Part shown: positions 19,208 through 34,361 of the stretch, one piece after another | Layout of the letters: the number at the start of each line of letters is the position of its first letter | Numbering within the stretch: the stretch's first letter is position 1 | From: Ignavibacteria bacterium | GTDB taxonomy: Bacteria; Bacteroidota; Ignavibacteria; Ch128b | Direction: 5' to 3' | NCBI GenBank assembly: GCA_016873845.1 | Contig: VGVX01000004.1 | Location: forward strand, 1-64,000 | Length of the DNA: 64,000 nt | Position numbers and translations under genes: made by a program | Notes under the pieces: model-generated | Told to the model about the DNA's origin: nothing | Databases searched by the model: none | What the model saw: only the letters and a program-made list of their open reading frames with translations

Positions 19208-20440
19208 TTAATTCATTCTTTTAACCGTGACAATTGTTTTATCATCAGAATATTGTCCGCGTGCACTGAATTTTTGAACATCTTCGATTAACGATTGTGT
19301 AATTTCCTTTGAGCTTAAGTGTCGAAGTTTTTGAACAAGTCGGATAAATTTTTCTTCTCCATAGAAATTTCCTGCTTCATTCATCGCTTCGGTGATCCCA
19401 TCAGTATAAATTACAAGCACATCTCCAATTTCAAAATTAATCATCGAAGTTCCAAATTTTGAATTGTAAGCCGGGCCGATCAGAGGACCAGTTGCATCTA
19501 GCGAAACAATTTTTTTTGAATTTGCTTTTAGAAAGATCGGACTGTTATGACCGGCATTGCAATAAATACATGCTCCATTTTTATCATCTGAAAGCTCGAT
19601 GTAAAAAAGTGAGACAAATCGATCATCAGGAAATATTTTGTAGACGAGATTATTTATTTTCTTCATTAGTGGAGAAGTTTTTGTTAGATAACTTACTCCC
19701 ATTCTCAAAGCCGCTGATACATAGAATGCTTCTGCGGCTGCAGCAAATCCTTTGCTCGCAACATCTCCAACCGCAACAGCAAACTTATCATCATCCACCC
19801 CGATATTTAGGTAATCATAGAAATCGCCACCGACAATTCTATCCGGAACCGAAATGCCGAACATCTCATAGCCAGCAAATTTAAATTCGTGTTCGGGAAG
19901 AATTCGTTTCTGCAGTTCGCGAGCCTGGTCGATATCATCGGTCAAAATTTTAGTACGTGTTTCAATTCTCTTACTTCTCAGAGTAGACGTTAAAGCAGTC
20001 CCAATAATATTAAGTGTATAAAATAAAGACTGATTAATTTCAGGGGCAGAGAATGCCATTAAATATTGATAAAGCGGGTAATCTTTTCCGCGAAGTTTTT
20101 CACCTATTCCGGTTGCAGAATATTTAAATATACCTTTCTGTCGTAGGTAGAGATTCGTTTCAGTGGTTAAAATTGTTCTTTCTTTGGCTATCAGCTCAAA
20201 GATTGGATAATCCGTAACATTAATTGTGAAATTCGGTTTTATCTTCTCGACTTCCCCTTCTTGAGCAATCAATTTATATTTTGACCTTGAAGGAGTAAGT
20301 TTCCATATTCTTCCACCGGTTACTGCGAACGATTCACTTGCAACAACTTCCTTTAGAACATTAATCAGAAGTTCCTCTTCAGACTTAAATGGCTGATTCG
20401 TGATCTTTTCTATTGTTCTATATAATTTTCTTTGATCCAA
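19208..20440 (-). CDS. SpoIIE-type PP2C serine phosphatase
   Basis: A 410-residue protein. The N-terminal 160 residues are an uncharacterised, possibly GAF-like sensor. The C-terminal part is a SpoIIE/RsbU-type PP2C phosphatase: ERIVGGDFYDYL-like PDRIVGGDFYDYL, AVGDVASKGFAAA, YCNAGHNSP and LVIYTDGITEAMN, with the metal-binding aspartates in place. Such enzymes usually dephosphorylate an anti-anti-sigma (STAS) protein in partner-switching control; no partner is visible here. TTG start. It is the first gene before pduS with a two-base gap, so it may be co-transcribed with the microcompartment genes. Confidence 0.9.
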   Translation of the reverse strand: MDQRKLYRTIEKITNQPFKSEEELLINVLKEVVASESFAVTGGRIWKLTPSRSKYKLIAQEGEVEKIKPNFTINVTDYPIFELIAKERTILTTETNLYLRQKGIFKYSATGIGEKLRGKDYPLYQYLMAFSAPEINQSLFYTLNIIGTALTSTLRSKRIETRTKILTDDIDQARELQKRILPEHEFKFAGYEMFGISVPDRIVGGDFYDYLNIGVDDDKFAVAVGDVASKGFAAAAEAFYVSAALRMGVSYLTKTSPLMKKINNLVYKIFPDDRFVSLFYIELSDDKNGACIYCNAGHNSPIFLKANSKKIVSLDATGPLIGPAYNSKFGTSMINFEIGDVLVIYTDGITEAMNEAGNFYGEEKFIRLVQKLRHLSSKEITQSLIEDVQKFSARGQYSDDKTIVTVKRMN

Positions 20441-20451
20441 AATACTTTATA

Positions 20452-20485
20452 GATAATTGAGAATGGAGAATTGATAATTGAGAAT
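20452..20485. repeat. Short direct repeat GATAATTGAGAAT
   Basis: The 13-bp unit occurs at 20452-20464 and 20473-20485 (period 21) just upstream of the phosphatase gene. It may be a remnant of an A/T-rich tandem repeat tract. Confidence 0.45.
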
Positions 20486-20530
20486 TAACATAAGACTCAT
20501 CAAATTATAATTTTTGTTAAACTTACGATC

Positions 20531-20635
20531 ACATTCATCCAACAGGGTGGATTCAGTACAAGCTTTATAAACATTACAAACTTTATGAACACATTCACTT
20601 CGTTAAGTACAAGCTTTACAAACTTTCCCACTTCC
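20531..20635 (-). repeat. Dispersed repeat family, copy A
   Basis: ACATTCATCC, a degenerate hairpin spacer, GGATTCAGTACAAGCTTTAT, then nine-base units of the TTTATGAAC/TTTACAAAC type, and a CATTCACTTCGTT block. It closely matches copies at 21265-21360 and, in coding sequence, at 31970-32055. It ends at the 3' edge of the YgiT-like gene. Confidence 0.65.
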
Positions 20636-20878
20636 TTAATTATTCATTGCAATGACTTCGAGTTGTCGTTTTTTTGTCTGGGCTTCAGAAGAAATCGTTT
20701 CCAATTTTGCTGCTGTTTTGTCGTCAATCCATTCTTCTCCACATTGAATACAAACTTCGGCATTTACATTTCTAATAATTATGATTCCTTCACCATAATC
20801 AGCACTGAATGTTGTTGTTGAGGATTTTTTCTTTCCTCCGCACATTGGACATAAAGATCGAGTTGTTTTTGAGTTCAT
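20636..20878 (-). CDS. YgiT-type zinc-finger antitoxin-like protein
   Basis: An 80-residue protein with CPMC near the N-terminus and CIQCGEEW near residue 43, the paired cysteines of the YgiT/MqsA N-terminal zinc finger. A short helical C-terminal tail replaces the usual HTH domain. Such proteins are commonly encoded next to DUF4258 proteins in toxin-antitoxin-like pairs, as here. ATG start, two bases after the upstream stop. The pair lies between two copies of a dispersed repeat. Activity is not proven. Confidence 0.8.
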   Translation of the reverse strand: MNSKTTRSLCPMCGGKKKSSTTTFSADYGEGIIIIRNVNAEVCIQCGEEWIDDKTAAKLETISSEAQTKKRQLEVIAMNN

Positions 20879-20880
20879 TT

Positions 20881-21183
20881 TTATTTCCTTGTTTTGAAAT
20901 CTTCATCAAAAAATTCAAGTGTTGGCTCATATGCTGTAATAATATAGACAATTTTATTGAATTCATCATACGATATTACTACGTGGAGAGGTCTATCCTT
21001 CACAATCTTGAATAAAAACATACTCGGATAAGGTTGGTCCTCTGGATAATCTTCAATTATTTCACCAGCTATGATAACCTTCAAAATCTCTTTTCTTTTA
21101 ATTCCACGTTCGATCAAACGCGACAAAACATGCTTACGCCAAATTACTTTCTCGTTCGATACTGCAGCCCTGATTTGGATCAA
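20881..21183 (-). CDS. DUF4258 protein, putative toxin
   Basis: A 100-residue DUF4258 protein: KHVLSRLIERGIKRKEI, IIEDYPEDQPYPSMF and RPLHVVISYDEFNKIVYIITAYEP are the family pattern, a RelE/BrnT-like small fold. Members paired with YgiT-type zinc fingers are considered toxin-antitoxin modules, and the order here (toxin first, then antitoxin) fits that. TTG start with no strong ribosome-binding site. The adjacent repeats at both sides suggest insertion as a unit. Confidence 0.8.
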   Translation of the reverse strand: MIQIRAAVSNEKVIWRKHVLSRLIERGIKRKEILKVIIAGEIIEDYPEDQPYPSMFLFKIVKDRPLHVVISYDEFNKIVYIITAYEPTLEFFDEDFKTRK

Positions 21184-21264
21184 AATGTTTTTAATAGTCT
21201 AACCTATTTATAAATTATAGAATATATATTTCAATTTGTTCAAATCCAGTATTTACCTTTACAA

Positions 21265-21360
21265 ACCCATTCATCCGCCAAGCCGGATTCAGTAAAAGCT
21301 CTATAAACATTACAAACACATTCACTTCGTTCAGTGCAAGCTTTATGAACTTTTAACTTT
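21265..21360 (-). repeat. Dispersed repeat family, copy B
   Basis: CCATTCATCCGCCAAGCCGG, ATTCAGTAAAAGC, then TATAAACATTACAAAC, CATTCACTTCGTTCAGTGCAAGC and TTTATGAAC. Same order of blocks as copy A. Together they bracket the YgiT/DUF4258 pair. Confidence 0.65.
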
Positions 21361-21382
21361 AAGAACTTTCATACTAATCAAG

Positions 21383-22666
21383 CTACCTATCACAATAATA
21401 ATCGATCATTCTTTGGATCGCATCTTTGCACACCACACAGAAGTTATCGACAGTTTTAGATTTCATTGAGCAATCAAGCATAGGACGATAAACTCCCTTT
21501 GGCACATAACCACCCCCTTCAAAAACCCCAACTATTTTATTGTTTAATTCTTCACTCGGAGTTGGAATTGGAGTTTCAGATTTAACCAGCGGTTTCCACT
21601 TTTTCTCAAAGTTTGTCAATGTCGTTAAATTTGGCTCCCAAGGTTCAATTCCAGCTTTGTAAAATTCTTCATACGCAACTTCAGATGTATAGTACTCATC
21701 ACCCAAACCAGCAAAGCCATGACCAAATTCATGAACAATTAAATATTCTTCCCACTCGTTGTCATTTACAGCAACCGAATAATGATTATAAATTGCACCT
21801 CCGCCATATTTGTCAGAATTCACTAAAACATAAATTAAGTCATATGGAGCATTTGCCGCTAAGTCGCGGAGAGTTTTATTGTCCTCCACCATGCAGTAAC
21901 GTTCTACATCGAATGTATAAAAACTGGAGTTCGCGGCGGTACTCCTATAGATTCCATCACGAGGAATATCTGTACCACTTTCTTTCGATGGCGCTTCCAC
22001 ATACCAAATATTAAAATTATTCCTGTTTTCTTTATACGGCGTTGAACCAAAAAGCAAAGTCCCGAATCTTTCAGCATCTTTTCTGAATTTGGGCATTTCA
22101 GTTTCAGTGTAACCATCAGGAACGATCACGATATCAACCTTCTCATTTGAATTACCGCCGTCGTAAACTTTGGCTGCTTTGAAAACATTTCTTCGGTCTT
22201 TTTTAATAAAGGGTGAACTTGGATCGACATGAAAAGTAAATACCAGATCGAAATTATTAAGTTCATTTCTTTTATACAGATTTACATTCACTTTATTTTT
22301 CGGAAATGGGAAAGTGAGAGTTTCGCTAAAAGCACGCCGCACTTGCTTCGCTTCTGCAGTAGTCAGCCATTCGGAAAATAAAGTTGAATATCCTTTTGAG
22401 TAAATTATCTTGTTTGAAACTGCATCGATAACTTCGAATCTATAATTGCCATAATAGAATTTATCAATCAAATTTATTTTATTACCTCCCCAAAACGGCT
22501 CCTCACGTATTTCATCTAATGCGATAATTTGTTCTTTGACGTCACCAATATTAAAATAATCTATTCGAAGAGATTTCTCGATGAAATATTTATCAAATGT
22601 AGTTTGTGCAATCAGACCGCTTACAAGAAAGCCAATCAGAAAAAACGTTAAACCAATCTTTTTCAT
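21383..22666 (-). CDS. Secreted M64 (IgA-peptidase-like) metallopeptidase
   Basis: A 427-residue exported zinc peptidase of the M64 family. It has a signal peptide (KKIGLTFFLIGFLVSGLIAQ), an N-terminal beta-rich domain (about 25-165), and the catalytic domain from VDIVIVPDGYTETEM to the C-terminus with HEFGHGFAGLGDEYY as the zinc site. The C-terminal CSMKS and CVVCKDAIQRMIDYYC cysteines are typical of the family. The archetype cleaves IgA, but most environmental members have unknown substrates. ATG start. It follows the nfeD/mscS genes on the same strand. Confidence 0.9.
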   Translation of the reverse strand: MKKIGLTFFLIGFLVSGLIAQTTFDKYFIEKSLRIDYFNIGDVKEQIIALDEIREEPFWGGNKINLIDKFYYGNYRFEVIDAVSNKIIYSKGYSTLFSEWLTTAEAKQVRRAFSETLTFPFPKNKVNVNLYKRNELNNFDLVFTFHVDPSSPFIKKDRRNVFKAAKVYDGGNSNEKVDIVIVPDGYTETEMPKFRKDAERFGTLLFGSTPYKENRNNFNIWYVEAPSKESGTDIPRDGIYRSTAANSSFYTFDVERYCMVEDNKTLRDLAANAPYDLIYVLVNSDKYGGGAIYNHYSVAVNDNEWEEYLIVHEFGHGFAGLGDEYYTSEVAYEEFYKAGIEPWEPNLTTLTNFEKKWKPLVKSETPIPTPSEELNNKIVGVFEGGGYVPKGVYRPMLDCSMKSKTVDNFCVVCKDAIQRMIDYYCDR

Positions 22667-22675
22667 TTTTTATTC

Positions 22676-23146
22676 CTAATTTTTCTTTACAATTATTTTA
22701 GCGCCCGCGACCGAGCTTACAATGATCGAATCCCCTTTTTGCAGAAATTCCCCCTCAGCTATGACATCATATTTCTTACCATCGACAACAGCAGAACCCG
22801 CCGGTCGAAGATTTGTCTGCGCAGTTCCGACTTTTCCAACAAGTGAATGATCAGATTTTGATGAAGTGAAGCCTTCTTCCTTCTTTTGCTGAGAATTTAA
22901 GATGAACCTATTCCATGCACCAATTTTAAATAAGACAAATGTAAATACTACGGAGAATGCTATGGTTCCAATTAAAATTAGTAATCCTGTATCCGCATTG
23001 AATTGAATGAACGAATAAATAATTGCGACTATTATTGATATCACGCCAAAAATACCGACAACAATCCCTGGCAGCACAAAAACTTCAAGCAAGAGTAATA
23101 TGTAGCCAAGAACTATCAATCCGATTATAATAAGCCAGTCCATCAT
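22676..23146 (-). CDS. Short NfeD-family membrane protein
   Basis: A 156-residue protein with three or four N-terminal membrane helices and a C-terminal OB-fold (LVGKVGTAQTNLRPAGSAVVDGKKYDVIAEG, here given only in part as key residues) typical of NfeD. It lacks the ClpP-like protease part of long NfeD (NfeD1b type). NfeD proteins normally pair with flotillins in membrane microdomains; the flotillin FloA is encoded 19 kb away at 41722. The ATG overlaps the mscS stop (ATGA). Confidence 0.85.
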   Translation of the reverse strand: MMDWLIIIGLIVLGYILLLLEVFVLPGIVVGIFGVISIIVAIIYSFIQFNADTGLLILIGTIAFSVVFTFVLFKIGAWNRFILNSQQKKEEGFTSSKSDHSLVGKVGTAQTNLRPAGSAVVDGKKYDVIAEGEFLQKGDSIIVSSVAGAKIIVKKN

Positions 23147-24267
23147 TTCTCCTTTTTGTGAATCACCATTTGCGGAAATGGAATCTCAATTCTATTCTTT
23201 TTGAATTTTATATTTATTAATTGTCTCAGTTCACTTTGAATTGTATAGACATCTCGATAATCAGTTGTGCGTGCAACTAATCTGATATCGATGCTGCTCG
23301 CCGAAAAATTTGTTACAAATACTTGAGGTTCGAACTCTTTCGAAACTAATTTATGTTCACCTGCAACACCGAGCAAAATACCTTTTGCTTTATCGATATC
23401 AGTAGAGTACGCAACACCTACATCGACAACAATCCTCGAGATCGTATTCGGATAAGTTAAATTTTGGATTCTGGTTTTTACTAATTCCGCATTTGGGATA
23501 ATTATTAAATTGTGATCAAAATCCAATAACTTTGTGCTTCTCATTCCGATTTCCACGACATCACCAATTTCACCGGATGGAAGTCTAATTCGATCACCAA
23601 TCCTGAAAGGTCTATCAACAAGAATGACAAAACCAGCTATCATATTCGAAAGAGTTTCTTGTGCAGCAAGAGCAACTGCGAGCGAACCGACTCCGAGAGA
23701 TAAAACTATTCCGCTGACATCAACTTCGAACTTATAAAGAATGATCAGCAGTCCAATAGTGAACAAAACCACCAAGATTAATTTTTTAACGAAAGGAATT
23801 AAATCGTATGCAGACCGTTCACCATGCTGCACGTCCCTTTTCTCGAGATAAAAATCTAAGATTACACTGAAGAGATTGTACAATGCATAAATCACAAATA
23901 AGACAGTGACTATAAAAAGCACATCATTGAAAAATGACGTTGTGCCAACTATGAAGTCATAGAGTGTTTGACCGACATACTCTTTAATTCGGGAATCTTT
24001 GAATAAAGAATTGATAAAGTACCGAATTGCAAGATATAGAGCGAGTACCACAAATATTCTATTTGAGAATTTTTCGATGACGTGGATAATTTTATCGTCT
24101 AATGTTGTCTTCGTTTTCCCGGCAAATGGTTTAATTAAAATTCGGATTATTAGATTTAGAATTCTGCCAGCAATGACCGTGATTAATACTATCCCAACAG
24201 ATACTACAACATGCATTAAAAGTACATTCGGAATTAATTTTTCCAACCAGCTATAAAAACTTTCCAT
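23143..24267 (-). CDS. MscS-family mechanosensitive ion channel
   Basis: A 374-residue small-conductance mechanosensitive channel. Four or so N-terminal membrane helices precede the pore helix and the conserved beta domain (LGVGSLAVALAAQETLSNM, then GDRIRLPSGEIGDVVEIG and IPNAELVKTRIQN). Such channels release solutes on hypo-osmotic shock. ATG start, two bases after the pyrE stop. Downstream nfeD is coupled by a 4-base overlap. Confidence 0.92.
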   Translation of the reverse strand: MESFYSWLEKLIPNVLLMHVVVSVGIVLITVIAGRILNLIIRILIKPFAGKTKTTLDDKIIHVIEKFSNRIFVVLALYLAIRYFINSLFKDSRIKEYVGQTLYDFIVGTTSFFNDVLFIVTVLFVIYALYNLFSVILDFYLEKRDVQHGERSAYDLIPFVKKLILVVLFTIGLLIILYKFEVDVSGIVLSLGVGSLAVALAAQETLSNMIAGFVILVDRPFRIGDRIRLPSGEIGDVVEIGMRSTKLLDFDHNLIIIPNAELVKTRIQNLTYPNTISRIVVDVGVAYSTDIDKAKGILLGVAGEHKLVSKEFEPQVFVTNFSASSIDIRLVARTTDYRDVYTIQSELRQLINIKFKKNRIEIPFPQMVIHKKEK

Positions 24268-24269
24268 TG

Positions 24270-24845
24270 TTAACCTATCTTTCTGCTTCCGGGTTTTTCA
24301 ATCGCAATTTTCGACTCACAAAGCGGACACGAATTTGCATCATAAGTTTTGGCAGATATTTTAATTGTACTGAAAAAGTTATAGTCCAATTGGAGAGAAT
24401 CGCTGCTTCGGTCGACAATTGATCCAAGTCCCACTACTTTGCCGCCAAATTTTTCTACGACCGCTGCGACCTCCTTGGATGATTTTGCTGTTGTAACAAC
24501 ATCTTCGCATATCAAAACTTTTTCTCCATGAAGAATTTCAAATCCACGCCGAAGTGTCATTAAGTTCTCAACTCTCTCAGTGAAGATCGATTTTTTATCC
24601 ATTAATCTTGCAACTTCCTGTCCGACAAGAATTCCACCTAAAGCAGGAGAAATCACAACGTCTATCTCAACTTTCGAAAAATGTTTTGCAATCTCATCGC
24701 AAAAGAAAGTAGAATATTTTGGATATTGCAGCACCTTGGCACATTGAAAATATACATCGCTATGCAGACCGGAACTTAATAAAAAGTGTCCTTCCAAGAG
24801 TGCGCCAGTTTCGCGGAATATTTGAAGCTTTTCTTGATTTGTCAT
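24270..24845 (-). CDS. pyrE: Orotate phosphoribosyltransferase
   Basis: Pyrimidine synthesis enzyme that joins orotate and PRPP to give OMP. It has HFLLSSGLHSDVYFQC, the PRPP-binding motif VLICEDVVTTAKSS, and a C-terminal CPLCESKIAIEKPGSRK end typical of the bacterial type that carries a short cysteine pair. 191 residues is normal. The ATG overlaps the upstream stop (TAATG). Confidence 0.93.
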   Translation of the reverse strand: MTNQEKLQIFRETGALLEGHFLLSSGLHSDVYFQCAKVLQYPKYSTFFCDEIAKHFSKVEIDVVISPALGGILVGQEVARLMDKKSIFTERVENLMTLRRGFEILHGEKVLICEDVVTTAKSSKEVAAVVEKFGGKVVGLGSIVDRSSDSLQLDYNFFSTIKISAKTYDANSCPLCESKIAIEKPGSRKIG

Positions 24846-25126
24846 TAAAAACGCTTATTAAGTTCCTCCGCAAAATCAAAATCATTTTGAGTTAATCCTC
24901 CGACACTATGGGTCGCGAGTGAAATGCGCACATTCCTATAGCTAAACAATAAAATGTCCGGATGATGATCTTTTTCTTCAGCGAGTTCTGCAACTTTGTT
25001 AATGAATTCAATCCCTTCCATAAAATTTGCAAAAACAAAATTTCGCTCGATTCTATTTTCTATTAAACTCCATTTGGGGAGCTTTGTTAGCATTAAATCG
25101 ATTTCATTTGCGCTAAGTTTATTCAT
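24845..25126 (-). CDS. 4a-hydroxytetrahydrobiopterin dehydratase (PCD/DCoH family)
   Basis: A 93-residue pterin-4a-carbinolamine dehydratase. The motif EEKDHHPDILLFSYRNVRI contains the active-site histidines, with a later THSVGGLTQNDFDFA. It recycles oxidised pterin cofactors, for example after aromatic amino-acid hydroxylases. ATG start; it overlaps pyrE by one base. No hydroxylase gene is nearby. Confidence 0.92.
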   Translation of the reverse strand: MNKLSANEIDLMLTKLPKWSLIENRIERNFVFANFMEGIEFINKVAELAEEKDHHPDILLFSYRNVRISLATHSVGGLTQNDFDFAEELNKRF

Positions 25127-25278
25127 AGACGTTGAATATTTTTATTAAATATAGAAAAATGAGCCGTTAGTTTAAAGAAGCCAGATGGATTCCTCAGGTT
25201 GATGTACTTTAATTACATCTGCTTAAAATAAATTATTAGAGGTATAAAAACGAGACATGTCATTAAAATGACTACGTT

Positions 25279-25310
25279 ATTGCTGTCACCGACCGGTCGG
25301 TGACAGCAAT
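25279..25310. repeat. 32-bp perfect palindrome containing GTCACCGACCGGTCGGTGAC
   Basis: Arms 25279-25294 and 25295-25310 are exact reverse complements with no loop. The central 20 bases (25285-25304) recur exactly at 57538-57557 inside a different palindrome. The spot is intergenic, upstream of the pterin dehydratase gene and downstream in map order of the HAD gene. Confidence 0.8.
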
Positions 25311-25315
25311 TGATT

Positions 25316-25381
25316 CCCCTTCTCTTACCAAGAGAATGGGAAACAGGGCGTGAGTTTTGAATATCATTTAAAAAATGATAT
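25316..25381. repeat. Two further hairpins in the intergenic region
   Basis: TTCTCTT-acc-AAGAGAA (25320-25336) extends outwards with CCC/GGG pairs after one mismatch, and ATATCATTT-aaa-AAATGATAT (25361-25381) is perfect. Together with the palindrome at 25279 they fill most of the 316-bp gap between the HAD gene and the pterin dehydratase gene. One of them may end the rightmost transcript or be a degenerate intergenic repeat. Confidence 0.5.
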
Positions 25382-25412
25382 AACATTTAAAATTCGTAAC
25401 ATTTTTTTCTTT

Positions 25413-26096
25413 TTATTGTTTGGGGCAAGAACGACTTAAATTTTTGCCTTCGACGATGTGGCTGAGAATATCTTCAAGCTTTTCATAAACTGGGACTCCG
25501 CAAGTTCTAAGGCGCTCCTTGCTTTGATGTCCGCCGAAAACCAAAATACAATCGGTCCCGATCGAAGAAGCAACTTCGTGATCATGCTTTGTATCTCCAA
25601 CTAAAATTATCTGCTTAGTATCGATTCCCAAACCTTCTATTAGAAGCTTTCCATTATCGAGTTTGCTTTTTGCATAATGATCGTTCAGCCCAACGACTTT
25701 TAGAAAGAAATTACGCAGACCGAAATGATCAACCAAAGTCTCAAGCGTATCTTGCTTGTAAGCTGAAAGAATCGACTGAGAGATTCCAGAATCACGGATT
25801 TGATTTAATATGCTGATGGCCGAAGGATATAATCCGCATTCATACTTTCGTTTTTCATATTCAATGATGAATTCTGTTCCAACAATTTCGAAGGATTCTT
25901 TTTCAAAATCGAAGCCAAGTGTTTGATAATAATCTCTAACCGGAAAGTCAAACAACCGTTGATAGGTCTCAGCATCAAAATCCATCATATTTCGCTTTTT
26001 AAGCATTCCACTCATAATCTCAACACAAAGCCATGAATCATCAAGTAAAGTGCCGTTCCAATCCCAAATTACATGTTTATATTTATAATTTTTCAT
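25413..26096 (-). CDS. HAD-superfamily hydrolase, phosphoglycolate-phosphatase-like
   Basis: A roughly 227-residue HAD phosphatase. Motif I is WDWNGTLLDD (nucleophile Asp), motif II is SILSAY near the middle, and motif IV is LVGDTKHDHEVA, with a helical cap after motif I. The closest general type is Gph-like, but the exact substrate is unknown. The ATG at 26096 is preferred to a TTG three codons upstream. It starts after the response-regulator gene, with an 86-95 bp gap. Confidence 0.85.
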   Translation of the reverse strand: MKNYKYKHVIWDWNGTLLDDSWLCVEIMSGMLKKRNMMDFDAETYQRLFDFPVRDYYQTLGFDFEKESFEIVGTEFIIEYEKRKYECGLYPSAISILNQIRDSGISQSILSAYKQDTLETLVDHFGLRNFFLKVVGLNDHYAKSKLDNGKLLIEGLGIDTKQIILVGDTKHDHEVASSIGTDCILVFGGHQSKERLRTCGVPVYEKLEDILSHIVEGKNLSRSCPKQ

Positions 26097-26191
26097 AACA
26101 CTCAACGGTCAATATAACACTTAAAATACAATTAAATTAAATGTTACTCAGAAAGATGTCAGGAGATATTGATTTTTCGCGGGCTTAAAAA

Positions 26192-26578
26192 TTATTTAAT
26201 CAGCTTGTTTATCTTATCAACAAGGTCGAGCTTGTTAAATGGTTTGGCTACATAATCATCTGCCCCTTCATTCATAAAAAGTTCTTTCTCGCCATGAAGG
26301 GCATAAGCAGTCAGAACTAATACCGGGAGATGTTTGAATTTTTCATTCGCTTTAATCTCGGTTAGAAATTTCAGTCCATCAAGTTTTTCTTTTAAGGCAA
26401 TATCCAAGAGTATCAGATCAACTTTCTCTGAGTTAAGTTTCACAAAAGCCTGCTCAGGTGATTCAGCTTGAATTAATTCAAAATACTTGTTCAGTAAAAT
26501 TTCTACGAGTGAATATGCCTCGAGATGATCTTCTACATACAAAATTCTTGGTTTCGATGCTGAATTAGTTTCACTCAT
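26192..26578 (-). CDS. Single-domain response regulator (CheY-like)
   Basis: A 128-residue receiver domain. ILYVEDH holds the acidic pocket, LLLDIAL the phosphorylated Asp, VLTAYA the Thr switch and VAKPF the Lys. There is no output domain. It lies four bases downstream of the histidine kinase gene, which is probably its phosphodonor. Confidence 0.92.
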   Translation of the reverse strand: MSETNSASKPRILYVEDHLEAYSLVEILLNKYFELIQAESPEQAFVKLNSEKVDLILLDIALKEKLDGLKFLTEIKANEKFKHLPVLVLTAYALHGEKELFMNEGADDYVAKPFNKLDLVDKINKLIK

Positions 26579-26582
26579 AACA

Positions 26583-27791
26583 TTAATTTTTTTTATCTGA
26601 TATAGGAATTTTGAATTTCATCGTTGTGCCAATGCCTTTTTTACTTTGAACTTCAATTTTTCCTTTCATTAATTCCAAATATCTCTTGGTTAATGCGAGA
26701 CCGAGACCAGAACCTTCAAAAGATCTTGAAGTCCCGACCTCTTCTTGACTGAATGATTCGAATAAATGTTTTTGGTATTCTTCGGACATACCTATTCCAT
26801 GATCTTTTATGGAACAAACAGCATAATCACCTTCAACATATGTTTTAATTTGAATTTGTCCAGCTTTGCTGAATTTGATCGAATTATTAATCAAATTCAT
26901 CAAAACTCCGTTCAAGCAGTAATCATCTGCCAGAATTAATGGTTCTTGTTTCATCAAATCGTGAACGATCGGAATATTTTTCGCCGCGGCCATAACTTCC
27001 AGTTGTTTAGATACTGAAATGACAATTGAATTATGCGCGATCGGAGTTAAGGTGATTTCAAAATTACCCGATTCGAGGCGAGAGATGTCTAAGATGTCCG
27101 TAATCGTATCTATTAACCTCATACCAGATCTTTCTATTGAATTAAAATAAGTTCCAGCTTGCTGATCGTTCGGATCGTGATACAGGTCCTTAATGACACC
27201 GGAGTATCCTATAATTATATTCAGAGGAGTTCGTATTTCATGCGACATTGCAGATATGAATCCACTTTTTAGTCTATAAGCTTCTTCTGCTTTTTCTTTC
27301 GCTTCTATAAGTTCAGATAACATTTTCTTTCTTTCTGTTATATCTTCTTTTAAAGAAACAAAATGAGTGATTTTACCAAATTCATCTTTGATTGGTGAAA
27401 TCATTGTATCTTCCCAATAACTTGTACCATCCTTCTTATTGTTAAGTATTTCTCCTTTAAAATCATCACCAGATAAAATTGTATCCCAAAGATCTTTGTA
27501 AAATTCCGGTGGATGATAACCTGACTTAAGAATTCTTGGAGTTTTTCCAAGAACTTCATCAGAAGTATATCCAGTTAACTCTGTGAATTTTGGATTAACA
27601 TATTCAATTTTTCCATCTGTATCAGTAATTATAATAACAGTAGGGCTTTGTTTAACAGCTGTTGATAGTTTGTTAGCTAATTCTTCGGTTTCAATTTGCT
27701 CTGTAATATCACGAATAAAACCATCATAATAAAGTGTCTTTCCAGATTCGTCTGTAATAGCTTTTGCAGAAAGTTGTACCCAGATTAGCAC
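26583..27791 (-). CDS. PAS-histidine kinase, C-terminal fragment of an interrupted gene
   Basis: A 402-residue continuation of the sensor gene at 27995-30163. It begins in the middle of a PAS domain (IWVQLSAKAITDE), then a second PAS/PAC (SPTVIIITDTDGKIEYVN to ERKKM), a HisKA helix with the phosphorylated His (SHEIRTPLN), and a HATPase_c domain (NLINNSIKFS, DHGIGM, GSGLGLAL). The reading frame differs from the N-terminal part. Conserved PAS residues can be followed across 27792-27994 with one frame change near 27870 and two in-frame stops near 27990. The original gene was therefore about 1190 codons. A sequencing error is possible; otherwise it is a decaying gene. The first codon used here is unlikely to be a real start. 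Confidence 0.8.
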   Translation of the reverse strand: MLIWVQLSAKAITDESGKTLYYDGFIRDITEQIETEELANKLSTAVKQSPTVIIITDTDGKIEYVNPKFTELTGYTSDEVLGKTPRILKSGYHPPEFYKDLWDTILSGDDFKGEILNNKKDGTSYWEDTMISPIKDEFGKITHFVSLKEDITERKKMLSELIEAKEKAEEAYRLKSGFISAMSHEIRTPLNIIIGYSGVIKDLYHDPNDQQAGTYFNSIERSGMRLIDTITDILDISRLESGNFEITLTPIAHNSIVISVSKQLEVMAAAKNIPIVHDLMKQEPLILADDYCLNGVLMNLINNSIKFSKAGQIQIKTYVEGDYAVCSIKDHGIGMSEEYQKHLFESFSQEEVGTSRSFEGSGLGLALTKRYLELMKGKIEVQSKKGIGTTMKFKIPISDKKN

Positions 27792-27994
27792 ACCATCCTT
27801 TTTCTTCCATCTAACTACATGATCAGTGATATAACCAATTGTCTCATATTTCTCATTAATACTGCTCTTTCGGATTTATTGAAATAAATATCCTCTGTCA
27901 ATGATTTTTGTAATAATTCTTCCTTTGAATTGTAACCAAGCATATTGACGAGAGTACTATTTACAGCTAAGAACTTACCACTTTTATTTCAATG

Positions 27995-30163
27995 CTAAAT
28001 ACTTACAGCAGCATTTTCAAAAATATCTCTGTATTTTTTTTCACTTATCTTTAAAGCTCTCTCTGATTTTATTCGCTCTGTGATATCTTCTATTAAAGCA
28101 TAGAGCGCGGGTTTACCTTCAAAAGTTGTGCTTGTTAAGGACATCAATGCATCATAGGGAGTACCATCTTTTCTTTTGAATAATACATGATGGTTTCTAA
28201 CATAGCCTTGCTTTTGGAATAGAGCGAGAACTTCAGCTCTTTGTTTGGGATCATAATAAAGTTCAGCTACGTGCTTGATTTTTGCTGCATCTTCTCTTTT
28301 ATAATTTGCTTGTGCAAGGATTGCATCGTTATAAGCAAGTAAATTTCCAGTCAAGTCAGCAATTCCGATTCCGATAGGTGATAGTTCAAATAACTTGCGG
28401 AATTGTTCTCCGCTTGCTTTTAATTCTTCTAGTAATTTTTTCCTTTTTTCTTCCATATCAATAAATTCGAGACCGAAAGAGATATCCAAAGCCATTTCGT
28501 CTAAAAGTTTTACTTCATTTATGTGGAAGAATTCAATTTCTTTCGAAAATAAATTAAACGTTCCGATGATTTCATTTTCCATTCTTATTAGAAATGAAGC
28601 GGCTGATTTACAGCCGAGAGTTACAGAATCTTTCTTGCATTTACCTAGCAGATTATCTTGCTCAATATTATTTACTACAAAATAATTATTAGATTCTATC
28701 ACCTTTTTACTCAGGCATCTGCATTGTTCAATTCCTGATATAGTTATTTTCTCTTCAATTATATTTACTTCTTTCAGCTGAGCACTCGCGACTACTTCAA
28801 TCTCATTATTTTCTTTATTTACTATGCCAATCCAGGCTAAGTGAAATTTCCCTTTCTCTACCGCAATTCTGCATATTTCTTCAAATAGTTTTTGTTTATC
28901 ACGAGTTCTAATAATAGTTTGGTTTGTATCAATTAAGACTGCATAGACACGATTAAGTCTTTTTACTTCATCTTCAGCACGCTTTCTACTTGTAATGTCT
29001 GTCAATGTACCTATATAAACAACTACTTGATTATTTTCATCTTTGACTGGAATAATATCACCTCGTGTCCAAACAATTTTTCCATCTTCGTGTACCCAAC
29101 GATATTCTAAATGGAATTCTGTGATATTTTGCACAGTATTCGTCAATTTTGACATTACTCTTTCTCTATCATCGGGATGAATTGCCGATATCCAGTTCAT
29201 GTTTATAGCATTTTCAGGAAGAACTCCAATAAGCTCTGCACACTTATCATTTATAAAGATCGCATTTCCTTTACTATCATCTAAGAATATTCCAACTGGT
29301 GATTTCTCTATAAGTAATCTGAATTTTTCTTCATTTTCCTTAATAGTTTGGAGAGCTTTTTTTATTTCAGTTATATCTCTAATGAATGTAATAAATTGTC
29401 TTTTACTTTCAAGAAATGTAGTTGTGACTTCAACATCGAAAATCTTGCCGTTTTTTGCTCTGTGCTTACTTTGAAAAACATCACTTCCTTTTGTAATTGT
29501 TTGTTGGATGTGACGGGCTGTTTCTTCAGGTGATTCCATTGCAACAAGCTCGGTTACAGATAATTTCAACAATTCATTTCTTTTATAACCACTCATTTTG
29601 CAGTAATTATTATTTACCTCAAGTAAGCGTCCGTTAATATCAGTCAGCCAGAATCCATCGGGAGTTGTGGTCAAGATCGTGTTATATTGTTCAAAATAAT
29701 TATGAATTAATCTTTCCTGAGCTTTTCGATTACTTATATCTCGGCCGACAACTGAAAGAAGTTTCTTCCCTTTTTCAGATTCATGGACAAAGGCAGACAA
29801 TTCTAACAAAATTTCTGATCCATCGATTGACTTAAGTGAAACTTCTTCTTTTAATTTCTTTTTCTTTAGTAGTTTTGGTATGATACTATTAAACACTCTA
29901 TTTATGTCGTTATCATGAATGAAATCTGAGATAGTCTTTTTTCTAAATTGAGCTAAAGAATTTATACCAAGTAATTTTCTACCAGATTTATTAAGATAGA
30001 TCACGTTACCATTTTCATCTGCAGTTCCAATAAATTCTGAGGAAGATTCTATTACATCGGTTAAGTAATTTTTAGTTAGGAGCGCCGGTTTTTTCGAATT
30101 GTCTGCTGAGGTTGAAGTGGACTTTTTTTGCTTTTGAATTTTTGGTGTATTTGTTTTTCGCAT
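27995..30163 (-). CDS. Multi-PAS/GAF sensor protein, N-terminal part of an interrupted histidine kinase
   Basis: A 722-residue soluble sensor. It has a basic start, PAS1 (about 30-150), PAS2 (155-275), PAS3 (280-400), a GAF domain (405-570), PAS4 (575-700) and the first 15 residues of PAS5 (KYRDIFENAAVSI), where a TAG ends it. The next PAS residues (GKFLAVNSTLVNMLGYNS) continue in the same frame after TAG-CAT-TGA. No transmembrane segment is seen, so it would sense a cytoplasmic signal. The kinase core is in the separate fragment at 26583-27791. ATG start, with a 389-bp upstream intergenic region. Confidence 0.8.
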   Translation of the reverse strand: MRKTNTPKIQKQKKSTSTSADNSKKPALLTKNYLTDVIESSSEFIGTADENGNVIYLNKSGRKLLGINSLAQFRKKTISDFIHDNDINRVFNSIIPKLLKKKKLKEEVSLKSIDGSEILLELSAFVHESEKGKKLLSVVGRDISNRKAQERLIHNYFEQYNTILTTTPDGFWLTDINGRLLEVNNNYCKMSGYKRNELLKLSVTELVAMESPEETARHIQQTITKGSDVFQSKHRAKNGKIFDVEVTTTFLESKRQFITFIRDITEIKKALQTIKENEEKFRLLIEKSPVGIFLDDSKGNAIFINDKCAELIGVLPENAINMNWISAIHPDDRERVMSKLTNTVQNITEFHLEYRWVHEDGKIVWTRGDIIPVKDENNQVVVYIGTLTDITSRKRAEDEVKRLNRVYAVLIDTNQTIIRTRDKQKLFEEICRIAVEKGKFHLAWIGIVNKENNEIEVVASAQLKEVNIIEEKITISGIEQCRCLSKKVIESNNYFVVNNIEQDNLLGKCKKDSVTLGCKSAASFLIRMENEIIGTFNLFSKEIEFFHINEVKLLDEMALDISFGLEFIDMEEKRKKLLEELKASGEQFRKLFELSPIGIGIADLTGNLLAYNDAILAQANYKREDAAKIKHVAELYYDPKQRAEVLALFQKQGYVRNHHVLFKRKDGTPYDALMSLTSTTFEGKPALYALIEDITERIKSERALKISEKKYRDIFENAAVSI

Positions 30164-30552
30164 AAACCACTTTTAATGATTGTAAGTTTACTTACCCCTC
30201 CTTACACCTCTTGAATAAAATGTGACTCAATGGTAATTTAATTTCAGCAGCCGAACACGAGGATTATATTTTTCCCTGTAACTGGTAATTATGTCTTCGT
30301 ATTTAAAACGGCTTGGATATTTATCTGCACGTATTAAAGTATAGAATTTTTATCACAAAATAAATCAAAAATTGAAAAAATCAATTTTTCCAAATTGAAA
30401 TTTCATCCTTTTCACTAAATTAAAGATGGATAGTTGGAAATTATTATTCTAGCAAAATAGTTCTGAGATTTAGTGATTACTTCATCCCTTAACTTTTACT
30501 CTTGTCTCAAGCTAAACCGGAAGGGAACTTTTAGATTTTACTTATCCTTGTT
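30164..30552. other. Intergenic region upstream of the sensor kinase
   Basis: 389 bp, AT-rich, no credible gene. It holds the kinase promoter and the 3' end of the GH9 transcript. One hairpin, AAAAATTGA-aaaaa-TCAATTTTT (30367-30389), has A and T runs at both ends and could act as a terminator on either strand. Confidence 0.5.
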
Positions 30553-33153
30553 TCAGTTTAAAGTGCTCATTGAGACGAAATTGTATGAATTATCCTTCAG
30601 ATTTCTAATTAAATCATCAAGTTTGTGATAGAATTTATCAATTCTTTTCGGATCACTTCCAACGTGGATTAAGAGAATCACGCCATTAAGTCTAGAGGGA
30701 TTTGTTGAGTCAAAGTTCAAAATCCTATTATAAATCTCCTCTGAGCTTAAATAATTTTTCATCTCAGGGAGAGTATAATCCGCATTCGAATATGTACCTC
30801 GAGTGAAGTTGACTAAAGTTATGCCAAGTTCATCACACCATTCAACAATCTTTTCATTGTACCACTCAAAAGGTGGAATGAAGAATTTAGCATCAGATGG
30901 ATTAATCCCAAACTTTTCCATCTCTTTATAGTTATTCTTGATATCCTCAAAAAATTCTTGCTTGGAAATTAGAAGCGAATCTCGATTGATCCAATCGCAG
31001 TAAAGGAGATGTTTATCGGAGTGGGCACCGAGATAATGTCCGTCTTTTTTAATTTCACCGATTAGCCCTTTGAAGTTTTCATTTCTGTAAAAATCACCTG
31101 TAAAAAAAAAGCTCGCTATGACATTATGTTTCTTCAAGGTTTCTAATATTGATTCACCTCCATCAGCAAATTCGTGCCCGGTGAAAACGAGATAGATCTC
31201 TTTTTCAGTTTTATCTCCCTGAATTATTCCGCCGTGACTCTTTTCAAATTTTTTCTGCTTAGTTTTTGAGCTTCCCAACTTTTCAAGTGCAGAAAAATAA
31301 TAGGTCAAACTTGCCGTTCCATCCATCGTCGGTTCGTTAGTTGAGTAGTCCCCCCAATCATCATGATAAACTACGAGATCAGATTGAAACTCCGAATATT
31401 CATCATCATTATACAATTTTATACCAATGAGATTATTAAATATTGACCCGTAAACAGGTCCATCGACTAAGCCGCCGTCAATCGGATAATTATAAACATG
31501 AGTGAACGCAGAATGAGGATCGATTGGATAATCACCGAATTTTGGAAATCCGACAATCATGCTCGTTCCCCACGGATTGCATCCGAATAACCAATCGCGC
31601 AGAGAAGCTTCCATTTCTAAATATCGAGTATCACCTGTGAGTTGATGATACAATCTTGCTTGTGTCATTGCAGCGGCGACTAAATTATTCGAGCACCAGA
31701 TGAATGGGATACCAAATTGGAATGGATTCGCTTTTCCTCTTTGAAAAATTTTTTCCAAACCATCCTTTATATAGGAAATAAATTCTTTCGAGATTTTTTT
31801 ATCTTTCGAAGATGCGAGATAGTAATGTCCAAGATTGATGAATGGATACCATTGATAATGTCTCGCGGTATCGGCTCCCATCCAAGGTGTAACTTTTTCC
31901 CCTCTCCCAAATTCAATAGCTTTATGAAAATATTCATCAACGACATTTTCCTTATCCCCACTTTCAACCTTATGAACACATTCGTCCGCATTGGCGGACT
32001 CAGTGCAAGCTTTATGAACCTTACAAACTTTATGAACTTTATTCACTTTATGGACTAATACACTCGCTAACTGGACGTCATCTACCCAATTATCCTCTTC
32101 GTAGAAATATGGTGCTCTGCACGGTGCCGTCTGGCATACTCCGGGGAACTCTTGTGCAAACTCATAAGCGTCAATGGATTTTTGAATAAGCACATCCGTA
32201 AGTTCAGGGTAATAATCGTTTAACAATTGTGAGGCTAAGGCAAAGGCTGAGGCATACTTAGCGGCAGTTGAAGCGACACCTGTTGTTCGGTTTTTATGTT
32301 TGAGCACACCTTGCGGTTGTCCATTTATAAAATAGACAGGCCGCTCGGCAAATCTTTGATTCTTTTGCCGGGGCTTACCATAATTGATCGTATCTTCCGT
32401 TGGGAGGCGAAATCCCATATGGTCGCGGTCGTCTGCGATTTGATTGAACATAAAATCTTTTTCGGGATTCATTCGAAGAAGCCAATCGACTCCCCACTTT
32501 GCTTCGTCAAGAATATCTGGAATTTCATTTGAACCTGCATCGCTATTCGCATCAAAATAATCACCGAAAGAATTTGGATTTTGTTGATATGCAAACAACA
32601 TTTGTAAAGTTGCATTGGCGGAAGTTGTAACGTACTGCAAATAATCAGAAGCATCGTGCCAGCCGCCCTTGACATCGATGTAAGTCGAATCGAGAGTCGG
32701 ATGATAAATAATGAAGCCATCGCGGGTGTGACACGAATCTTTCAAAAATGGATTGTAGCCACATCTCTGTTGACGCATATAATTTAAAAGAAAATCTGCC
32801 GCACCATTATAAATATCATCAGAAATTCTAAAGACAGGCGATTTGATATTCCCAGCTTTAATGTAATACGCACCGCTTTTTTTCAGTTCCGAGAAGTTAA
32901 GTCGATACGAAGATTTGAAAGCTCCCCACTCGCCAAATTTGTTAATGTTTTTAGATTGGAGTTCTACTTTATCGGTGAGTGCATTACAGACTTCAAATTG
33001 TGAAAGAGTGAAATCTTCTTTGCTCACTAGTACAGCAATTTTGATGGATTCTTCAAGGTAACCGAGCTGATTGATGCGAATCCATGATCGCTCAGCCGAA
33101 AATAAACTAATTGGCAAGCAATAGAGAAAAATTAAAGTTTTCAGTTTCTGCAT
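30553..33153 (-). CDS. Secreted GH9 glycoside hydrolase fused to a polysaccharide deacetylase domain
   Basis: An 866-residue exported enzyme. It has a signal peptide (cleavage near residue 20), an Ig-like CelD_N domain (SWIRINQLGY to about residue 110), and a GH9 catalytic (alpha/alpha)6 domain (GGWHDASDYLQY near residue 163; YSTNEPTMDG with the acid Glu near 606). A C-terminal CE4/NodB-like domain follows from residue 650 (VFTGHEFADGG, GAHSDKH, FIPPFEW, ILLIHV). GH9 enzymes cut beta-1,4-glucans. The deacetylase-like part has a Gly-His in place of the usual FDDG, so its activity is uncertain. Residues about 366-394 are an in-frame copy of a dispersed repeat. ATG start. Confidence 0.88.
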   Translation of the reverse strand: MQKLKTLIFLYCLPISLFSAERSWIRINQLGYLEESIKIAVLVSKEDFTLSQFEVCNALTDKVELQSKNINKFGEWGAFKSSYRLNFSELKKSGAYYIKAGNIKSPVFRISDDIYNGAADFLLNYMRQQRCGYNPFLKDSCHTRDGFIIYHPTLDSTYIDVKGGWHDASDYLQYVTTSANATLQMLFAYQQNPNSFGDYFDANSDAGSNEIPDILDEAKWGVDWLLRMNPEKDFMFNQIADDRDHMGFRLPTEDTINYGKPRQKNQRFAERPVYFINGQPQGVLKHKNRTTGVASTAAKYASAFALASQLLNDYYPELTDVLIQKSIDAYEFAQEFPGVCQTAPCRAPYFYEEDNWVDDVQLASVLVHKVNKVHKVCKVHKACTESANADECVHKVESGDKENVVDEYFHKAIEFGRGEKVTPWMGADTARHYQWYPFINLGHYYLASSKDKKISKEFISYIKDGLEKIFQRGKANPFQFGIPFIWCSNNLVAAAMTQARLYHQLTGDTRYLEMEASLRDWLFGCNPWGTSMIVGFPKFGDYPIDPHSAFTHVYNYPIDGGLVDGPVYGSIFNNLIGIKLYNDDEYSEFQSDLVVYHDDWGDYSTNEPTMDGTASLTYYFSALEKLGSSKTKQKKFEKSHGGIIQGDKTEKEIYLVFTGHEFADGGESILETLKKHNVIASFFFTGDFYRNENFKGLIGEIKKDGHYLGAHSDKHLLYCDWINRDSLLISKQEFFEDIKNNYKEMEKFGINPSDAKFFIPPFEWYNEKIVEWCDELGITLVNFTRGTYSNADYTLPEMKNYLSSEEIYNRILNFDSTNPSRLNGVILLIHVGSDPKRIDKFYHKLDDLIRNLKDNSYNFVSMSTLN
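31970..32055 (-). repeat. Dispersed repeat family, copy C, inside the GH9 coding sequence
   Basis: ACATTCGTCCGC-attg-GCGGACTCAGTGCAAGC followed by TTTATGAAC, CTTACAAAC, TTTATGAAC units. The hairpin GTCCGC/GCGGAC spans 31984-31999. The block order matches copies A and B (20531-20635 and 21265-21360). Read on the coding strand it yields a VHKVCKVHKACTESANADEC peptide that interrupts a GH9 helix-loop without breaking the frame. Confidence 0.75.
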
Positions 33154-33324: not shown

Positions 33325-33684
33325 TTAAACATCACTCTTCAGTGGTAAAAAGATAATTTGATTTTTCATCTCATCCGGAAGTAGAGATAGAGCAATTAAT
33401 TCTAAATCTTTAACGCATTTACCGATAGTAATTCTCATCGGGTGTGCATAGATCAAACCACCAAATTTATCACCTTTAGAAATCAAGTTAGCCGCAATCG
33501 AAAGTAAATCATCATCAAAAGAAACCATCACTCTATTTTTTTCTGTCGCTCTTTTTAATATTTCGAAATCGGAAAGCAGTGAAGTATCATCATCTTGTGA
33601 GGTTAATACATCTATTCCTTTTAAGAGTAAGCCATTTTTTATTGCACGGGGAATATGAACATCAAAATAGTAAGCTAATGCCAT
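33325..33684 (-). CDS. DUF5615 PIN-like protein, putative toxin
   Basis: A 119-residue protein. YYFDVHIPRAIKNGLLLKGIDVLT is the N-terminal DUF5615 pattern; VMVSFDDDLLSIA provides the acidic PIN-like residues. The family is a Mut7-C/PIN-like RNase fold usually encoded with DUF433 antitoxins, as here. The ATG directly follows the DUF433 stop (zero gap), so the pair is translationally coupled. Activity is not proven. Confidence 0.85.
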   Translation of the reverse strand: MALAYYFDVHIPRAIKNGLLLKGIDVLTSQDDDTSLLSDFEILKRATEKNRVMVSFDDDLLSIAANLISKGDKFGGLIYAHPMRITIGKCVKDLELIALSLLPDEMKNQIIFLPLKSDV

Positions 33685-33990
33685 TTAGCTTGTTTTTTCA
33701 AAACTAAATTTTTTATTGAGCTTTAAGTTAGAGTGCTTGTTATTCAATTTATCAATTTTTTCAATCCGGTTTTTAATCTCCGCATCCATCTTCTCTTGAT
33801 TATCCCAATAATAAGCAAGTGCTGTGTGAATTTGTCCAAGACTTAGATTGGGATGTTGAAAGTGTATTTCTTCGGGGCTCCAAGCGTAAGCCAAATATTC
33901 CACAATAATTTCTACTACTTTAATCTTTGTTCCAGCAATAAATGGAATACCTTGTTCATCAAATTGGATATGGTCACATGTTGCATTCAT
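33685..33990 (-). CDS. DUF433 protein, putative antitoxin
   Basis: A 101-residue protein. GIPFIAGTKIKVVEIIVEYLAYAWSPEEI is given in key part only; the IAGTKIKV and WSPEEI segments with a following NLSLGQIHTALAYY helix are the DUF433 winged-helix pattern. The lysine-rich C-terminal tail would contact its toxin. It is the first gene of the DUF433-DUF5615 pair, which sits between the GH9 gene and a GH9 remnant. Confidence 0.85.
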   Translation of the reverse strand: MNATCDHIQFDEQGIPFIAGTKIKVVEIIVEYLAYAWSPEEIHFQHPNLSLGQIHTALAYYWDNQEKMDAEIKNRIEKIDKLNNKHSNLKLNKKFSFEKTS

Positions 33991-34045
33991 TAAACTTTAA
34001 TTCATATTTAATTCTGTTGAAAAATAAATGTAATTAAGATAAATG

Positions 34046-34288
34046 TCAAAAAGTTAAGTTAAGAATTTTTGAAAGTCTCAAAATAATCGAGCGGTTTTCT
34101 TCAGGATTAAATCCTCCCCAATATAGATATGTTAACCGCCATAAATTTTCCTCACTTTTTGTGATAGCAATTTTAATGGATTGTTCAAAATAACCGAGCT
34201 GATTTATGCGAATCCAGGATTGTGAAAAACCGAAATTGATCAAAAAGATCAACAACCAAATCATGGATTGAAATTTAATTTTATTCAT
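34046..34288 (-). pseudogene. N-terminal remnant of a second GH9 gene
   Basis: An 80-codon open frame. The first 49 residues (signal peptide, then SWIRINQLGYFEQSIKIAI) closely match the start of the GH9 protein at 30553-33153 in both protein and DNA sequence. The remaining 31 residues do not match GH9 and lead to a stop. It is therefore best read as the broken start of a duplicated GH9 gene, separated from the intact copy by the DUF433/DUF5615 pair. Confidence 0.75.
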
Positions 34289-34361
34289 ATAGTTATAATA
34301 ATAAAATTAAATTTAAAACATGCATAGTAAAGTTAAGATTAACTAATCATCAACGGTCAAT

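Follow-up and report, generated by a model that had tools for sequence, protein, structure and literature searches.

An intergenic repeat of nine-base units and hairpin modules lies in frame within a GH9 glycoside hydrolase gene of an Ignavibacteria genome

We describe a composite dispersed repeat in an Ignavibacteria genome (2.98 Mb in 162 contigs) of which nearly all copies are intergenic, while one lies in frame within the gene of a GH9 glycoside hydrolase, where it adds 30 codons that the orthologues lack. The repeat consists of nine-base CTTTATGAA-type units arranged around a hairpin module of the form ACATTC-hairpin-TCAGTGCAAGC. The stretch of DNA analysed here, hereafter the window, comprises 64,000 nucleotides of contig C4 of this genome and holds the GH9 copy alongside two intergenic ones (Table 1). 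We consider it probable that the composite intergenic repeat of this genus, i.e., TTCRTAAAG units of nine bases interspersed with small hairpin modules, was copied into the GH9 gene through its units, at a loop between two helices.

Results

The product of the host gene is a genuine secreted-type GH9 glycoside hydrolase that combines CelD_N, GH9 and polysaccharide deacetylase domains, and its top Foldseek matches are the GH9 endoglucanases 3x17, 6dht and 5e2j. Asp167, Asp170 and Glu607, which we take to be the catalytic residues of GH9, are identical in all 89 aligned sequences. Nearby, the minus strand carries a piece of a second GH9 N-terminus (34049-34306; the start of CelD_N, 51% identical to the main gene over its residues 3-48), which is separated from the intact GH9 gene by a DUF433/DUF5615 pair at 33328-33996.

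Table 1. Coordinates of the host gene, the in-gene repeat with its parts, and the intergenic copies in the window
Feature	Position	Strand	Basis
Host gene, CelD_N + GH9 + C-terminal polysaccharide deacetylase, 866 aa	30553..33153	-	domains, Foldseek, 89-sequence alignment
In-frame composite repeat, 30 codons, residues 367-396, VHKVNKVHKVCKVHKACTESANADECVHKV	31966..32055	-	absent from 88 orthologue sequences; 80% to 20523-20600, E 8.7e-13
Terminal unit AACCTTATGAAC, separated from the unit array by the module	31966..31977	+	read from sequence
33-nt module ACATTC-GTCCGC.ATTG.GCGGAC-TCAGTGCAAGC, 6-bp hairpin at 31984-31999	31978..32010	+	sequence, folding, spacing measurement
Five nine-base units TTTATGAAC CTTACAAAC TTTATGAAC TTTATTCAC TTTATGGAC	32011..32055	+	read from sequence
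Intergenic copy with a 33-nt and a 24-nt module, downstream of MqsA-like zinc-finger gene	20523..20635	+	sequence, BLAST, spacing
Intergenic copy, two modules, between M64 peptidase gene and DUF4258 gene	21255..21369	+	sequence, BLAST, spacing

A sequence-only reading had noticed a dispersed repeat in frame within the GH9 gene at 31970-32055, encoding about 29 residues (366-394). The core of this observation is borne out, with the composite block present three times in the window and the frame remaining open across the insert in an ORF check, but the bounds shift slightly, to those given in Table 1. As the gene lies on the minus strand, the repeat is read there as GTTCATAAAG...GCTTGCACTGA-hairpin-GAATGTG. 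The codons run GTA TTA, followed by the insert, GTC CAT AAA GTG AAT AAA GTT CAT AAA GTT TGT AAG GTT CAT AAA GCT TGC ACT GAG TCC GCC AAT GCG GAC GAA TGT GTT CAT AAG GTT, and then GAA AGT GGG GAT AAG. The peptide added in this way (VHKVNK...DECVHKV) is lysine-rich and includes three cysteines.

None of 88 GH9 orthologue sequences from Ignavibacteria and Bacteroidota, which represent at least 80 distinct genes as some loci were fetched twice, carries the insert. Their consensus in this region reads LAAxQLYxxTGxxxYLxxA, and GH9 residues 371-397 and 402-406 fall into near-empty columns of the remaining alignment; in L128, one of the orthologues, the same region holds an insertion of unrelated sequence. 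The net excess over the orthologues is 32 residues, five of which (402-406, NVVDE) may reflect an independent native indel. Because the segment is missing from the orthologues while flanks, frame and catalytic residues are intact, it is an insertion into a conserved gene and not a conserved structural part. The orthologues of the related genomes G003 and G005 are likewise free of it, and another genome of the same genus (G001) has no GH9 gene. No exact empty site was seen among the orthologues, the closest of which shares ca. 65% identity, so the native residues at the junction are uncertain.

An assembly artefact or chimera in this metagenome-assembled genome could be suspected given its 162 contigs and the exact 20-mers that copies of the repeat have in common. 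We regard this as very improbable since the GH9 copy is unlike all others (72-81% identity), keeps the frame, and is followed on both sides by correctly continuing GH9 sequence.

In the window, the pattern TCAGTGCAAGCTTTATGAAC with up to three mismatches has three matches (20553, 21331 and 32000) compared to 0.01 expected from shuffles. This significance belongs to the composite block, whereas the unit TTTATGAAC alone is not significantly enriched (four seen vs. 1.5 expected). A BLAST search of the own genome with the 86-nt GH9 copy returned 20523-20600 (Table 1), 21331-21369 and ca. 20 further places, mostly through the nine-base units; no exact donor was found, and the best match is the 80% one. 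Other copies do exist in the genome, with sequence searches giving ca. 20 arrays and ca. seven hairpin modules that have CAGTGCAAGC-like ends; five of the module sites are on C4, and C2 and C29 have one each. An apparent in-gene array (L027, C44:23031) is located at the end of its contig, in a protein that has no Pfam match, and short matches in long genes (L019, L025, L028, L031-L033 and L146) were rejected as chance codon matches. At three own loci (L007, L011 and L017), common sequence beside the arrays (TCCGTTAGCTAACGGATTTGG...TTTTGCCCG...GATTGAATTAAGTTCA) constitutes a second dispersed repeat. The DUF4258 and MqsA-like zinc-finger genes bracketed by the two intergenic copies in the window (20639-21198, minus strand) are a probable toxin-antitoxin pair.

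Modules measure 24, 33 or ca. 60 nt and are flanked by varying numbers of units, i.e., the repeat has neither a single length nor a constant terminus, and its hairpin sequence varies between copies. Eight modules retain both of the marks GCTTGCACTGA and GAATGTGTT, and the distance between these is 18, 27 or 54 nt in every one, which is suggestive of nine-base quantisation but, with three length classes and shared descent, no proof of coding selection. Eight-base units and stops are frequent in intergenic arrays, and in five of 11 other copies tested every frame is closed; of the six frames of the GH9 copy, three are open, as reached by 13 of 300 shuffles. It also folds better than shuffles (z -2.3 and -3.4), while the copy at 21250-21375 and two G001 copies do not. 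We claim no common structure of a functional RNA given that the folding signal is restricted to the GH9 copy, and a search of 20300-32300 returned no Rfam family above the gathering cut-off.

An AlphaFold2 model of the GH9 protein (61-sequence alignment, mean pLDDT 89.4) predicts the insert to be a loop between two barrel helices that protrudes as a helical hairpin. The first barrel helix would be prolonged (356-385), followed by a turn (386-388) and a return (389-397), in a lower-confidence part of the model (pLDDT 60-76 vs. ca. 96 around it). The conserved EEDNWxDD and TPWMGAD motifs enclose the turn, which, judging by this sequence order, is probably found at the barrel end opposite the active-site loops. 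Recruitment of the segment for a function, e.g., as a cysteine-containing, lysine-rich helix pair that would bind a surface or substrate, is suggested by its open frame, predicted helicity and three cysteines, all the more as several intergenic copies are stopped in every frame. We nevertheless consider recruitment highly unlikely, because the segment occurs in one protein only and the model has low confidence there, and infer that the insert is tolerated rather than endowed with a new function in a protein that is presumably made.

The same-genus genome G001 has five module copies (C87, C501, C255, C504 and C443), one of which (L148) does not have a cleanly matching end. Comparing both genomes revealed sites occupied in one species and unoccupied in the other. 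Three orthologous intergenic regions with 70-82% identical flanks (own L014, L016 and L012 on C89, C36 and C32 vs. G001 L145, L147 and L148) have units in both species and modules in G001 only. Behind the M64 peptidase gene, modules lie on both sides of the DUF4258/MqsA-like pair in our genome, two of them after the zinc-finger gene. At this site G001 has the zinc-finger gene and an apparently shortened DUF4258 gene, with three bare units instead of the two modules, and in three further genomes of the family both the gene pair and the repeat are missing.

The fifth pair concerns the aconitase gene, in which G001 has AAAGTTCATAAAG-TCCGTCAGTTGACGGA-TAAAGTTCGTAAAG where our genome has a single native unit, AAAGTTCGTAAAGTT. 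This is an in-frame gain of 30 nt in which TCCGTCAGTTGACGGA, a 16-base near-palindrome, sits between two units, and the lysine-rich tail of the protein reads KVHKVRQLTDKVRKV instead of KVRKV. The unit-hairpin-unit arrangement has no match in 479 kb of control loci, and TCCGTYAGCTRACGGA palindromes of this type recur elsewhere in both genomes. By BLAST alone the similarity is weak (E 1.9), and since the tail is of low complexity, we count the G001 aconitase as a probable rather than certain second in-gene case. A lysine-rich, histone-H1-like C-terminal tail of ca. 60-110 residues (L258/L256 in G001, L259 in our genome) is present in the aconitases of this family as well as several related ones, and absent from other aconitases of the class.

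At all five paired sites, the version without hairpin has units. For the zinc-finger and aconitase pairs, the unoccupied site was fetched via the gene and not the repeat, so the route of finding does not explain the presence of units there. A discrete, non-autonomous mobile element moved by some enzyme that would recognise the hairpin, the units being what is left of the target site, could account for modules being present or absent at orthologous sites and for flanking units that look like target duplications. However, the absence of a fixed length and constant termini, the variable hairpin sequence, and the low copy number make such an element rather unlikely.

Searches of other genomes of the family returned no hairpin modules. 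Nine-base arrays are patchy; among 294 genomes of the class, at least 27 have them (three candidates were scored per genome), as do eight of 396 genomes drawn from the phylum, seven of them again in class Ignavibacteria. A similar composite is seen in G115 (L210), where a nine-base array follows a palindrome and TTCGCTTCGCTCAG. Arrays and hairpins co-occur in other families too, e.g., at L206 (G290 C207), where nine-base arrays lie near other palindromes (CCCACGAATAAATTCGTGGGC and ATCCCTTCGGGAT). A search of the 294 genomes in the insert's own reading frame found no further long in-gene copy. A VHK-frame protein match in a collagen-like gene of G051 was rejected because that gene is read in another frame, as was a locus of another family (L226) where just the generic GAACACATTCGCTTCGCTCAGTGC word matched, without units. 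Across the 294 genomes, the pattern CATTCN{5,25}CAGTGCAAGC yielded scattered single matches whose spacers are unrelated, at a level similar to that of the reversed-pattern control, except for three in our own genome.

Such patchiness would be expected of simple repeats, and an CTTTATGAA word indeed lies near the insert within the GH9 gene (31920-31928). The unit array could have grown locally, through slippage during replication of native sequence coding for VHK, its likeness to intergenic copies being convergence on a common simple repeat. We give this scenario little credence because slippage cannot yield the shared, non-repetitive 33-nt module ACATTC...TCAGTGCAAGC.

Discussion

Because the hairpin-free version of each paired site has units, we propose that pre-existing TTCRTAAAG-like units may act as landing or recombination sites. 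A segment of hairpin plus unit would recombine with such a unit, or be copied onto it by template switching, leaving a hairpin flanked by units. With nine-base units and modules that measure multiples of nine between their marks, the copy would keep the reading frame. Its tolerance by the protein may come from the several stop-free frames of a clean copy and from the position of the lysine-rich helix pair, which would be held away from conserved residues. Removal of VHK...DEC from GH9 would leave LASVLVHKVESGDKE, which aligns with LAAxQLYxxTGDK of the orthologues. A native VHKV word may have served as the seed, a conjecture insofar as no close empty GH9 site was found; unit-mediated entry would predict an GTTCATAAG-type word at the junction of an insert-free gene.

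The probable aconitase case in the sister species hints at a small and undescribed repeat family whose members can be absorbed by proteins. As a more tentative extension, these repeats might form a new class in Ignavibacteria whose hairpin modules would move by landing through homology on TTCRTAAAG units, be they intergenic or by chance inside genes, so that any unit-bearing gene would be a target and would keep its frame. The sequence-only reading had likewise suspected an undescribed, protein-tolerated family; the lack of an Rfam match and of literature agrees with this, though with one certain and one probable in-gene copy the family is not a rich one. Our literature search for the array sequence or nine-base intergenic repeats found nothing relevant, but subscription journals lay mostly outside its scope and an earlier description is possible.

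Several known systems invite comparison. Palindromes of the REP type or with GTAG and CGTC tags are also dispersed short hairpins, yet they are extragenic, 20-40 bp long, and have tagged ends (PMC3733652). The enterobacterial RU-1, RU-2 and RU-3 elements, which are ERIC-like, resemble our repeat as small intergenic repeats with open frames that sometimes lie within annotated genes (PMC2759123), but are defined MITE-like elements of 103-168 bp without nine-base arrays. As regards MITEs in general, direct units flank the hairpin in our repeat, and constant terminal inverted repeats were not seen. Palindromic amphipathic repeat coding elements (PARCELs) share dyad-symmetric DNA that encodes amphipathic segments and a patchy distribution (PMC2996958). 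They differ by their tandem 25-residue motif in proteins of unassigned function and their link to horizontal transfer, whereas the GH9 case is a single insert in a known enzyme. RU elements and PARCELs are thus more distant analogues.

By analogy of behaviour, the Rickettsia palindromic elements (RPEs) are the closest known system; the sequence-only reading had likewise seen a resemblance to them, in a different phylum and with a different sequence. RPEs and their Wolbachia counterparts (WPEs) are dispersed palindrome-bearing repeats found between genes and in frame in unrelated genes, at solvent-exposed places (PMC3767692, PMC10969869). The likeness holds for dispersal within one genome and for in-frame insertion into a pre-existing conserved gene, while membership fails. 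RPEs are numerous palindromes of 100-150 bp with constant ends (44 integrations in R. conorii in the first report) whose sites are conserved between species, but our repeat is a variable unit array with small hairpins that has entered one or two genes, without an insertion site common to orthologues of related species. Dispersed palindromic repeats that insert in frame are chiefly known from the intracellular Rickettsia and Wolbachia with their reduced genomes. The Ignavibacteria case belongs to an environmental lineage with occupied and unoccupied sites in two species of one genus, and these site pairs are a place to test how a non-coding repeat becomes a protein segment and whether a nine-base period is the basis of its tolerance.
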